A stretch of DNA of 64,000 nucleotides from Cyanobium sp. AMD-g (GTDB lineage: Bacteria; Cyanobacteriota; Cyanobacteriia; PCC-6307; Cyanobiaceae), in NCBI RefSeq assembly GCF_024346395.1, contig NZ_JAGQCW010000002.1, forward strand, positions 186,001-250,000, read 5' to 3'. The position numbers and the translations under genes are program-made. Below are positions 3,183 to 5,716 of this stretch, one piece after another. The notes beneath the pieces are model-generated. The model saw only the letters and a program-made list of their open reading frames with translations, searched no databases and was not told the origin of the DNA. Every line of letters starts with the position of its first letter. The first letter of the stretch is position 1.

Positions 3183-3593
3183 TTAGGCTAAGCCAAGTTG
3201 ATGGAGCATGAGCGGCTGATCGAACTGCTCCCAGCGTTCTTGCACCTTGCCATCAACCAGCCGGTCGATGACGAGCCCTTCGATTGCCATTTCTTTCCCT
3301 GTCGCAGGCACCGAGTCGAGCGGACCTTTGTGCGTTCCCGTGCCACGCCAACGAAATGCCACCGAGTCACCTTCGATTAGTTGCTGTTCAACACTTAGGT
3401 GTAAATCGGGAAAAGCGCACAGAAAACCAGAGATGAACTCTTTCCATGGTCCGACGCCACGAATAGGCTCTGGAAAGCCAGTGACATGAAAAATGCAGTC
3501 TGGCAGGAATACTTCGTCGGCTGCTGAGACATCACCACGATTGAGGCCCTCGATCCAGACCCTCTCGTACGCAAGCAAGGAAGTAACGGGCAT
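3183..3593 (-). CDS. SnoaL-like polyketide-cyclase family protein
   Basis: This 136-residue protein is of the SnoaL-like ester-cyclase type. It has an N-terminal helix with YERVWIEGLNRGD, a central IRGVGPWKEFISGF and FPDLHLSVEQ, then the family-typical FRWRGTGTHKGPL, in which H and K often line the pocket, and a C-terminal VQERWEQFD. Substrate and role are unknown. It lies on the minus strand in line with the toxin-antitoxin cassettes and starts 93 bp from an attC-like palindrome, so it is probably the distal cassette of the integron, although no clear attC follows its stop. The surrounding GC content is lower than in the housekeeping genes. Confidence 0.7.
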   Translation of the reverse strand: MPVTSLLAYERVWIEGLNRGDVSAADEVFLPDCIFHVTGFPEPIRGVGPWKEFISGFLCAFPDLHLSVEQQLIEGDSVAFRWRGTGTHKGPLDSVPATGKEMAIEGLVIDRLVDGKVQERWEQFDQPLMLHQLGLA

Positions 3594-3686
3594 GGTCAGC
3601 TTTCAGTAGAAACGGACGACTGATAATCTATCTTATGGAGACACCAAGAAACCACGCCGAAAATCTGACCGGTGTTGCGATCGGCT

Positions 3687-3773
3687 GTCTAACGCTCAAG
3701 ATCAGAAGCGGGTGAGCAAACATGGGCATTGCCGATTCCCTCTGCTCCCGCCTTCTGCATTTTGATGTTAGAA
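3687..3773 (-). other. attC-like site 1 (after RelE/RHH cassette)
   Basis: This 87-bp imperfect palindrome is bounded by GTCTAAC (3687-3693) and GTTAGAA (3767-3773). Read on the minus strand it runs from R'' TTCTAAC to R' GTTAGAC, the latter a full match to GTTRRRY. Inner arms pair CTCAAGATCAGAAGCGGG with an imperfect complement on the other side, leaving unpaired bases as in attC stems. It begins 8 bp after the toxin stop codon. Confidence 0.72.
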
Positions 3774-3780
3774 CGTCCAT

Positions 3781-4044
3781 TCATCGATAGACATCTCCCC
3801 TGTGGCCGACCTTAACAACGTCGACAACGCGCGAATTATCATCGACAGAGTAGATTACCCGATAGTTGCCTTGACGAATACGATAAAGGTTCTGCCTGCC
3901 CGCGAGCTTTTCAGATCCTGAAGGCCGCGGCTGGGCAGCCAGAGACTTGATTTTCTCAATCAATCGACTCAGAGTCGCCTTATCAGATATTGCCTGAAGC
4001 TCTTTAGCGGCCGATGGCTTAATCGTGAAGCTATAATCGGCCAC
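3781..4044 (-). CDS. RelE/ParE-family toxin
   Basis: The 87-residue protein has the full RelE/ParE pattern: FTIKPSAAKELQAI at the N-terminus, the middle SGSEKLAGRQNLYRIRQGNYRVIYSV, and the terminal VVDVVKVGHRGDVYR. RelE-type members cleave mRNA on the ribosome and ParE-type members poison gyrase; the sequence does not settle which this is. The conserved arginines (YRIRQGNYRV) and the C-terminal HRGDVYR are present, so it is probably functional. Its start overlaps the antitoxin gene end by 14 bp, the usual antitoxin-first operon. It is carried as one integron cassette bounded by two attC-like sites. Confidence 0.9.
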   Translation of the reverse strand: MADYSFTIKPSAAKELQAISDKATLSRLIEKIKSLAAQPRPSGSEKLAGRQNLYRIRQGNYRVIYSVDDNSRVVDVVKVGHRGDVYR

Positions 4045-4261
4045 TATCTCTTAGGCTTGTGACAAACTCTTCGAAGCTAGAGCTTGGCTCAGCCTGCCTC
4101 TGATCAGCATCTTTCAAATCGTCCGCATCTTCGACCAATGTCATCCGAACTGCTTCATTGACCATGTCCGATATCGAGCGGTTGCATGCAGCAGCTCTCA
4201 GCCGCAGTGCACGATGCACATGCGCGTCAAAGTAGATGGTAGCCCGCTTCGTTTCATCCAT
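4031..4261 (-). CDS. Ribbon-helix-helix (CopG-like) antitoxin
   Basis: This 76-residue protein begins with a ribbon-helix-helix DNA-binding domain (residues 5-41: RATIYFDAHVHRALRLRAAA, then SISDMVNEAVRM). A charged, probably disordered tail ending SSFEEFVTSLRDSGRL would wrap the toxin. It should neutralise the RelE-like protein encoded directly downstream and repress their shared promoter. The ATG at 4261 is the only plausible start. Upstream lies an AT-rich stretch containing TTAACGTCAAGACGTCAAGA, whose repeated GTCAAGA words could be the operator. Confidence 0.85.
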   Translation of the reverse strand: MDETKRATIYFDAHVHRALRLRAAACNRSISDMVNEAVRMTLVEDADDLKDADQRQAEPSSSFEEFVTSLRDSGRL

Positions 4262-4327
4262 TCCTTGACCTTAGCGCTTTAACGTCAAGACGTCAAGACA
4301 GTGGCGCTATCGGCTTTCTTCTGATCC

Positions 4328-4412
4328 TTCTAACGCTCAAGATCAGAAGCGGGCGGTGGCCGTGGCATTAGCGACACCATCCGCTCCCGTCTTCGAAATC
4401 TTGATGCTAGGC
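4328..4412 (-). other. attC-like site 2 (after BrnTA cassette)
   Basis: This 85-bp imperfect palindrome is close kin to attC-like site 1: both share TCTAACGCTCAAGATCAGAAGCGGG-type left arms and CGCTCCCG..CTTC right arms. On the minus strand it runs from GCCTAGC (one mismatch to RYYYAAC) to GTTAGAA. The upstream R'' contains the TAG that would end a read-through BrnA. Confidence 0.7.
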
Positions 4413-4718
4413 CTCCTTCGCATCGCCAGTGGAGTGAGCTACGACATAATCCTTGAGCACAGCATCCATACGAGCTTGCCAACCAGCTCCTGAAGCCCTG
4501 AATTAGTCAATAACCTCAGGGCTATATCGGATTGAAACAAGCTTCTTTTTACTCGCCAACTTTGGACGGCCGCGCAGCACCCGAATGGGGACCATCGCGC
4601 TCATCTGCTCGTCTGTAAGCGGAAGGACATCAGGATCTGACTCTGCTGCCGCTGAAATCAACTGATCTTCCTCAAGTGTCGGCATCTTCAGGCTGATCCT
4701 ATTTAAAGGCTTTGACAT
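4407..4718 (-). pseudogene. brnA: BrnA antitoxin with in-frame stop
   Basis: From ATG 4718 the frame encodes 71 residues of a BrnA antitoxin (GRPKLASKKKLVSIRYSPEVID) and stops at TAA 4503-4505. The same frame then continues FRASGAGWQARMDAVLKDYV and a short tail to TAG at 4407-4409, which is exactly the missing C-terminal half of the BrnA DNA-binding domain (family pattern YFRATGpGWQ). One change, TAY (Tyr) to TAA, therefore explains the truncation. The upstream toxin frame looks intact. Either the antitoxin is made short, or the stop is read through, or the position is a sequencing error. The start overlaps the toxin end by 20 bp. Confidence 0.75.
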
Positions 4719-4971
4719 AGTGACTGACCTCGCGGCGATTGGCGCTGCGTAGACCAATAACTCTCCTTACCGGCACGCGATCTACAAAGGCGACAAAACA
4801 GAGTATGGCTCCAATTGGAGCCAAGGCAACCATCCTTACTTCACCATAATCAGCCCGATGATCAATCCAGACGAGTGCTGCATCCCAGCCAAGCTCAGCT
4901 GCGGCCGCTATGGAGAGGCCATGCTTGCTCAGATTGGTCGCGTCCTTGCCAGGGTCGAAATCAAACTGCAC
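4699..4971 (-). CDS. brnT: BrnT-family toxin
   Basis: This 90-residue BrnT ribonuclease toxin is recognisable from FDFDPGKDATNLSKHGLS at the N-terminus (family pattern FDPxKxxxNxxKHGxSF), then EVRMVALAPIGAILCFVAFVD and the C-terminal VIGLRSANRREVSHYVKA. The family fold is RelE-like and cuts mRNA. The gene precedes its antitoxin, as is normal for brnTA, with a 20-bp overlap if BrnA starts at 4718. It forms the second toxin-antitoxin cassette of the integron. No frame damage is seen. Confidence 0.88.
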   Translation of the reverse strand: MQFDFDPGKDATNLSKHGLSIAAAAELGWDAALVWIDHRADYGEVRMVALAPIGAILCFVAFVDRVPVRRVIGLRSANRREVSHYVKAFK

Positions 4972-5034
4972 ACTTTACCGTAGCTACAAGAAGACCGCCC
5001 GTCAACATTGACTCAACAGGCAGCCTTCAGGCGG

Positions 5035-5123
5035 GCCTAAAGCTGCCCTTGAGTGGCAGGCAAGAAGCTATGGCTATCGATGCAGACTTCAAGCGGCCTG
5101 TCCACTCCAAGGGCATGTTATCC
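5035..5123 (-). other. attC-like site 3 (after HicAB cassette)
   Basis: This 89-bp palindrome has arms GCCTAAAGCTGCCCTTGAGTG and CACTCCAAGGGCATGTTATCC, pairing with a one-base bulge, and a second inner stem of CAGGC..GAAG with CTTC..GCCTG. On the minus strand it starts GGATAAC and ends TTTAGGC, so the R' box lacks the usual G. It lies just after the hicB stop. Confidence 0.62.
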
Positions 5124-5129
5124 ATTCCT

Positions 5130-5462
5130 CTATGCCGTGACACTTCTCTGGAGTGCTTCCTGAGCGAGCGTGTTGATACTCTTCCCCTGCACCTCCGCAG
5201 TCATCGCGAGCTTCTCGTGCAGTTCAGGAGGAATTCGAAGATTGAACTTGCCTGAATACTGTCTACGTGGCTTGATTCCTTGCTCCTTGCAGACCTCAAG
5301 AAAAACCTCCAGTGATTTCTTGAACTCACGTCGAAGCTCATCCGGGCTTGATCCATAGAAGTCCGCCCCTCCAGAAATCCCAAGAATCTCCCCGCGAAAC
5401 TGATCTGTTTCCTCGTCGTACTCAATTTTGGCGTGGTAGCCGTCCACATTCATCAGATTCAT
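5130..5462 (-). CDS. hicB: HicB-family antitoxin
   Basis: The protein has the two-part HicB layout: a degenerate RNase-H-like domain (KIEYDEETDQFRGEILGISG, then FYGSSPDELRREFKKSLEVF) and a C-terminal ribbon-helix-helix segment (FNLRIPPELHEKLAMTAEVQ, then KSINTLAQEALQRSV). It should bind the HicA toxin and the operon promoter. I place the start at ATG 5462, eight bases after the hicA stop, giving 110 residues; an ATG at 5489 overlapping hicA would add nine. An attC-like site follows directly. Confidence 0.88.
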   Translation of the reverse strand: MNLMNVDGYHAKIEYDEETDQFRGEILGISGGADFYGSSPDELRREFKKSLEVFLEVCKEQGIKPRRQYSGKFNLRIPPELHEKLAMTAEVQGKSINTLAQEALQRSVTA

Positions 5463-5470
5463 GGTGTCAC

Positions 5471-5716
5471 TCAGTGTTCTTCGAACCATTTGCGGATTGA
5501 AGCAACAGCACCCTTGTCTGTATCGGGCGATGGGTGGGGTCTGTGGAAGACCCTGACTTCGCCAAACAGAACGACCGCGACTCGGCTGCCCGCCCTCTCG
5601 CTTACCTCCCCACCAAGCTCCTGAAACAGGGCTTCAATGTCCCTCCACGGCAAGCTGCCGCTTACAGGTCGGGAGAAGATCAGCTCAAGGGTGCGCTGCT
5701 GCTTCCGCTTCATCAC
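5471..5716 (-). CDS. hicA: HicA-family toxin
   Basis: This 81-residue mRNA interferase has the small dsRBD-like HicA fold. It shows an N-terminal helix (LELIFSRPVSGSLPWRDIEALF) and the conserved C-terminal VFHRPHPSPDTDKGAVASIRKWFEE, in which the first histidine of HRPHP is the expected catalytic residue. It is translated just before hicB, the usual toxin-first order. The 60 bp upstream lead straight into an attC-like palindrome, so its promoter must be short or supplied from the integrase side. Confidence 0.9.
   Translation of the reverse strand: MMKRKQQRTLELIFSRPVSGSLPWRDIEALFQELGGEVSERAGSRVAVVLFGEVRVFHRPHPSPDTDKGAVASIRKWFEEH

Follow-up and report, generated by a model that had tools for sequence, protein, structure and literature searches.

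Integrons can carry gene cassettes with toxin-antitoxin (TA) pairs, as in the superintegrons of Vibrio. The closest described relative of the pair studied here is BrnTA of Brucella abortus (PF04365/PF14384), which acts as a 2:2 complex (PMC5086665) and whose antitoxin, BrnA, carries a C-terminal RHH (PMC11980606). In the Brucella toxin, the residues D6, E7, K9, K16, H17, R41, R72 and E78 are important, as cited in the reviews PMC5086665 and PMC13284704. We analyzed a stretch of 64,000 nucleotides from Cyanobium sp. AMD-g (the window), in which a brnTA pair shares with the Brucella module the toxin-first overlapping operon, the BrnT fold and, in the antitoxin of its relatives, the C-terminal RHH. 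It differs in that the antitoxin stops inside the RHH, in that the pair lies in an integron cassette, and in that a putative operator sits inside its promoter. Like the TA cassettes of the Vibrio superintegrons, this cassette bears a promoter, ends in attC and belongs to an array that holds further TA pairs and adjoins an integrase gene; unlike them, it is found in the Cyanobium clade, its integrase lies on the array strand and it is often decayed.

The brnTA operon and its interrupted antitoxin gene

The operon has the following features.

4699-4971, minus strand: brnT toxin gene, GTG start at 4971, 90 aa, open, 3' end overlapping the start of brnA, S73G in the I-S-x-R motif
4407-4718, minus strand: antitoxin gene brnA, start ATG at 4718, TAG at 4409-4407 as the ancestral end, product of 71 aa owing to an internal TAA
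4503-4505, minus strand: in-frame TAA, codon 72 of brnA, TAT/TAC (Tyr) in all relatives covering the codon
4410-4502, minus strand: preserved brnA frame 3' of the stop, codons 73-103, comprising the remainder of RHH helix A together with helix B and the tail

The brnT gene (4971-4699) comes first and overlaps brnA (4718-4407), which is the toxin-first layout of BrnTA. On the minus strand, 4727-4407 translates as ...MSKPLNRISLKMPTLEEDQLISAAAESDPDVLPLTDEQMSAMVPIRVLRGRPKLASKKKLVSIRYSPEVID*FRASGAGWQARMDAVLKDYVVAHSTGDAKEA*, where the first asterisk is the TAA at 4505-4503, the sole internal stop; the 71-aa product ends in ...RYSPEVID, and the frame 3' of the stop is FRASGAGWQARMDAVLKDYVVAHSTGDAKEA. 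The in-frame TAA in brnA, with an open frame beyond it, was thereby confirmed. Relatives at 83-91% identity have the same frame without the stop, so the interrupted frame is not a chance one, and Tyr72 to stop needs a single base change. The Tyr-to-stop change proposed by an earlier reading of the letters (the sequence-only reading) was borne out when the related alleles were compared, with TAT or TAC in every relative covering codon 72. The preservation of the remaining frame, claimed by the same reading, was also upheld: the 71-aa form matched Pfam BrnA (PF14384) with 29 bits (cut-off 26.1) over profile positions 1-47 of 68 only, while the sequence with the stop read as a residue reached 70.4 bits over positions 1-68, as a full-length BrnA. 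As that reading had it, the frame ends in an attC box, with the ancestral TAG (4409-4407) inside GCCTAGC.

A comparison of the window brnA with the closest allele gave 4 non-synonymous to 9 synonymous differences over codons 8-71 and 1 to 3 over codons 73-97, all of them small numbers. Because the codons beyond the stop still look constrained, with little time to drift, the stop looks recent on the window branch. A model of the read-through BrnA, whose overall confidence was low and was better in the two helices concerned, placed the RHH helices at residues 67-75 and 80-94. Codon 72 falls within the first of these predicted helices and the second is lost, and, judged by this prediction, the window BrnA does not have the complete C-terminal RHH of a BrnTA antitoxin. 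The stop takes away most of the predicted RHH and keeps the N-terminal part of BrnA, which would be left for toxin binding; the N-terminal half is strongly conserved. Loss of autorepression would be the expected outcome of this truncation, and loss of neutralization is not certain. The operon is BrnTA by ancestry and its present antitoxin product is incomplete; RNase activity neutralized by the antitoxin and autoregulation are putative functions of the pair. A sequence search of the PDB for a BrnA chain found none.

The cassette and its copies in other genomes

The cassette and its surroundings comprise the following features.

4974-5005, minus strand: promoter of the brnTA cassette, TTGACG-17 bp-TACGGT, overlapping the palindrome GTAGCTAC (putative BrnA operator)
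4330-4413, minus strand: attC of the brnTA cassette, an imperfect hairpin with the 5' box GCCTAGC, which holds the ancestral brnA stop, and the 3' box GTTAGAA
5036-5041, minus strand: 3' box of the preceding attC, TTTAGG versus GTTAGG in most relatives, G to T at the crossover base 5041
5130-5489, minus strand: hicB antitoxin of the neighboring cassette, PF05534
5471-5716, minus strand: hicA toxin of the neighboring cassette, PF07927
4031-4261, minus strand: RHH antitoxin-like gene of the next cassette, RHH family matches below their cut-offs
3781-4044, minus strand: ParE-family toxin of the next cassette, PF05016
6086-7018, minus strand: tyrosine recombinase of 310 aa resembling integron integrases, encoded on the strand of the cassette array

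The brnTA pair makes up an integron cassette that brings its own promoter and a putative operator and ends in an attC. Between the -10 hexamer and the GTG start of brnT lie 5 nt, an arrangement kept in about ten distinct relatives, and this spacing makes a leaderless brnT mRNA probable in the window and its relatives. The palindrome within the promoter is a likely operator. The attC, which a custom finder missed and which was settled instead by alignment and folding, gave a fold z of -2.6 to -2.8 and is conserved in relatives; its 5' box with the brnA stop reads GCCTAGC in the window and GCCTAAC in most relatives. The cassette sequence is common up to GTTAG, beyond which the flanks are unrelated in most relatives, placing the copies in different contexts. 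On the side of the preceding attC, the cassette may no longer be excisable, since the crossover position has lost its G. The cassette lies between a HicAB and a ParE/RHH pair, the neighboring genes of the array are open, and the array (3183-5716) is rich in TA pairs. The recombinase, which we take to be IntI from a stretch resembling its extra domain, shares its strand with the cassettes past its 3' end, opposite to the divergent arrangement that is usual. A search of Rfam gave no match.

A scan of the genome collection with a BrnT query gave no match; repeated with a BrnA alignment, it found relatives. Counting the window's own genome, relatives of the window BrnA are held by 21 of the 300 genomes of the family sample and by 21 of the 42 of the genus sample, and the named ones are Cyanobium and freshwater Synechococcus-type genomes; a plasmid search gave no match. 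We read each copy, leaving out those cut by contig ends. Both genes are open in nine copies (L003, L004, L005, L006, L009, L011, L014, L060 and L070), a broken or truncated toxin accompanies an open antitoxin in five (L007, L008, L083, L012 and L064), and both genes are broken in at least nine. An open toxin with a stopped antitoxin was seen in the window only, among the copies read. Decay is common and repeated in the brnTA cassette of the Cyanobium clade, with nonsense mutations, frameshifts and truncations scattered over the copies of one module as in decaying chromosomal TA modules, which include solitary toxins, solitary antitoxins and pseudogenes; unlike in the other half-broken copies, it is the antitoxin that is hit in the window while the toxin frame is open, the reverse order. 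Since the cassette decays often in picocyanobacterial genomes, its presence alone is no evidence of active function there. One copy is split (L010 and L039, G072:C1, at about 233.0 kb and 242.4 kb), with the N-terminal part of brnT about 9 kb away from the remainder.

A phylum-wide check covered 291 genomes, and each of the other BrnA frames with a flagged stop was read singly; none repeated the window arrangement. Two of the flagged frames (L154 and L158) proved intact on reading, and three (L155, L156 and L157) were solitary BrnAs with no BrnT seen alongside.

Toxin residues and short reading frames beside a second BrnT

The window BrnT matched PF04365 with 61.2 bits (cut-off 34.5) and also matched 3u97 by sequence, and its AlphaFold2 model (mean pLDDT 92.1) had as its best PDB match 7vd7 (TM 0.81), the toxin from a toxin-antitoxin complex of Salmonella. 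When the Brucella residues were mapped onto it by alignment, seven of the eight were kept, namely D6, K9, K16, H17, R46 (Brucella R41), R75 (R72) and E81 (E78), and the position of E7 is Pro throughout the window BrnT subfamily. The sequence-only reading had called the toxin intact, which is only partly right: the frame is open and the key residues other than E7 are kept, and S73 is replaced by Gly. Of the 84 unique BrnTs aligned, 81 have Ser at this position, and the only Gly besides that of the window is in L013 and L038, both decayed copies. As S73 lies two residues before R75 on the same predicted strand, the two side chains should point to the same face. The window BrnT is probably weakened by this substitution at a nearly family-invariant Ser, a role for S73 being suggested by its conservation. 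R76S was also considered as a lesion and was rejected, the Brucella BrnT likewise having Ser there, so that S73G alone was kept. Branch dN/dS was run for both brnT and brnA on the window lineage; the omega of the brnT branch was 0.42 versus a background of 0.18, a difference that is not significant (2dlnL 2.5; 2.8 against omega = 1), and pairwise brnT values among intact relatives are similar to those of the window.

The genome encodes one other BrnT (G000:C5), about 32% identical to that of the window, and no second PF14384 protein elsewhere. Downstream of this second BrnT, and overlapping its 3' end, lies a conserved 60-aa ORF (L159:839-1021; G000:C5:133438-133617), which has relatives in 25 of the 300 family genomes, this genome included. 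The short ORFs next to this BrnT lineage (L159, L046, L048-L051, L053, L055-L057 and L160-L189) are 60-68 aa long in most copies, with a median omega of 0.13, and gave no significant Pfam match and no RHH. Their alignment to full-length cyanobacterial BrnA covers the part preceding the RHH (profile score 32.4, versus 15.9 for the best of 40 column shuffles); a profile comparison with the window BrnA subfamily gave no direct match. These ORFs possibly encode an undescribed RHH-less BrnA-type antitoxin.

Explanations for a stopped antitoxin beside an open toxin

We favor the explanation that the stop is a recent nonsense allele in a repeatedly decaying cassette, tolerated since the toxin is probably weakened, and we give it an even chance of being right. 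A single-base mutation of Tyr72 would recently have hit the antitoxin of the cassette-borne module, as an early step in the decay that recurs in the Cyanobium clade. From its C-terminal RHH, the 71-aa BrnA would be missing helix B and a portion of helix A; it would keep its N-terminal part and presumably no longer dimerize on, or repress, the palindrome of its own promoter. The cell would survive most likely as BrnT was already weakened by S73G, and residual neutralization by the 71-aa stub may help. Against this explanation stand the lack of clear relaxation in brnT, the presence of all Brucella key residues bar E7, and the toxin-first order of decay in the other half-broken copies, which is reversed here. 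The sequence-only reading held that such a stop would be hard to tolerate; the stop does lie beside an open toxin frame, but S73G and the confinement of the loss to the RHH make it less hard to tolerate than claimed. Its proposal that the toxin is silent gains support from S73G together with the repeated decay of the cassette in the clade.

Decay is favored over a functional short antitoxin, and the two could coexist as a weakened toxin with a partly working stub. A tentative alternative, with a smaller chance than decay, is that the 71-aa BrnA is still a working antitoxin whose N-terminal segment masks BrnT, with RHH promoter binding and autorepression alone lost, leaving a deregulated and safe pair. 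The strong conservation of the N-terminal half argues for it, as do the C-terminal location of the RHH (PMC11980606), which would free the N-terminal part for toxin binding, the alignment of the 60-aa RHH-less ORF beside the second BrnT to pre-RHH BrnA, and a window BrnT without a lesion at the known toxicity residues. The claim that the short form still works is plausible to this extent, in that the stop removes only the C-terminal RHH and RHH-less BrnA-like ORFs stand beside the other BrnT. However, the natural short ORFs are putative antitoxins only and lack a direct profile match to the window BrnA subfamily, RHH dimerization may be needed for the stability of the 2:2 complex (PMC5086665), and no other cassette copy pairs an open toxin with a truncated BrnA. 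We consider it rather unlikely that the truncation is functional in the fuller sense, with the N-terminal segment of BrnA alone neutralizing BrnT and the loss of the RHH having turned an autoregulated module constitutive; if it were so, the RHH-less BrnA-like ORFs beside the other BrnT lineage would be a stable outcome of the same route.

The remaining explanations have small chances. A sequencing or assembly error, or a polymorphism in the culture, would involve one base only, in the single genome available for its species, but none of the 53 ABC-transporter domains matched in this assembly contains an internal stop and the nearby array genes are open, which makes this improbable. Neutralization of the window BrnT by another antitoxin, be it HicB, the RHH protein from the next cassette or the ORF partnering the second BrnT, is less probable still: several antitoxins are encoded close by, yet they belong to different families, the genome has no other PF14384 match, and its one further BrnT shares about 32% identity and comes with a partner ORF of its own, which makes the cover by another antitoxin suggested in the sequence-only reading unlikely. 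Least probable is that ribosomes pass the stop, by suppression or read-through, at a rate sufficient to yield full-length BrnA. The frame beyond the stop is preserved and looks constrained, but a recent mutation accounts for that, TAA is the ordinary end of brnA in most relatives, and the same 53 ABC domains show no in-frame stops elsewhere. Moreover, the brnA stop is UAA followed by U, which is not a leaky stop context, and read-through, also raised by the sequence-only reading, found no support.

With close intact and broken alleles at hand, the window allele provides a natural test of which half of BrnA restrains BrnT. Among the solitary BrnAs of the phylum, L157 (G354:C116) has a TAG in RHH helix A (RIDSDV*EWFKSQG); the site corresponding to the window stop lies two codons further downstream.
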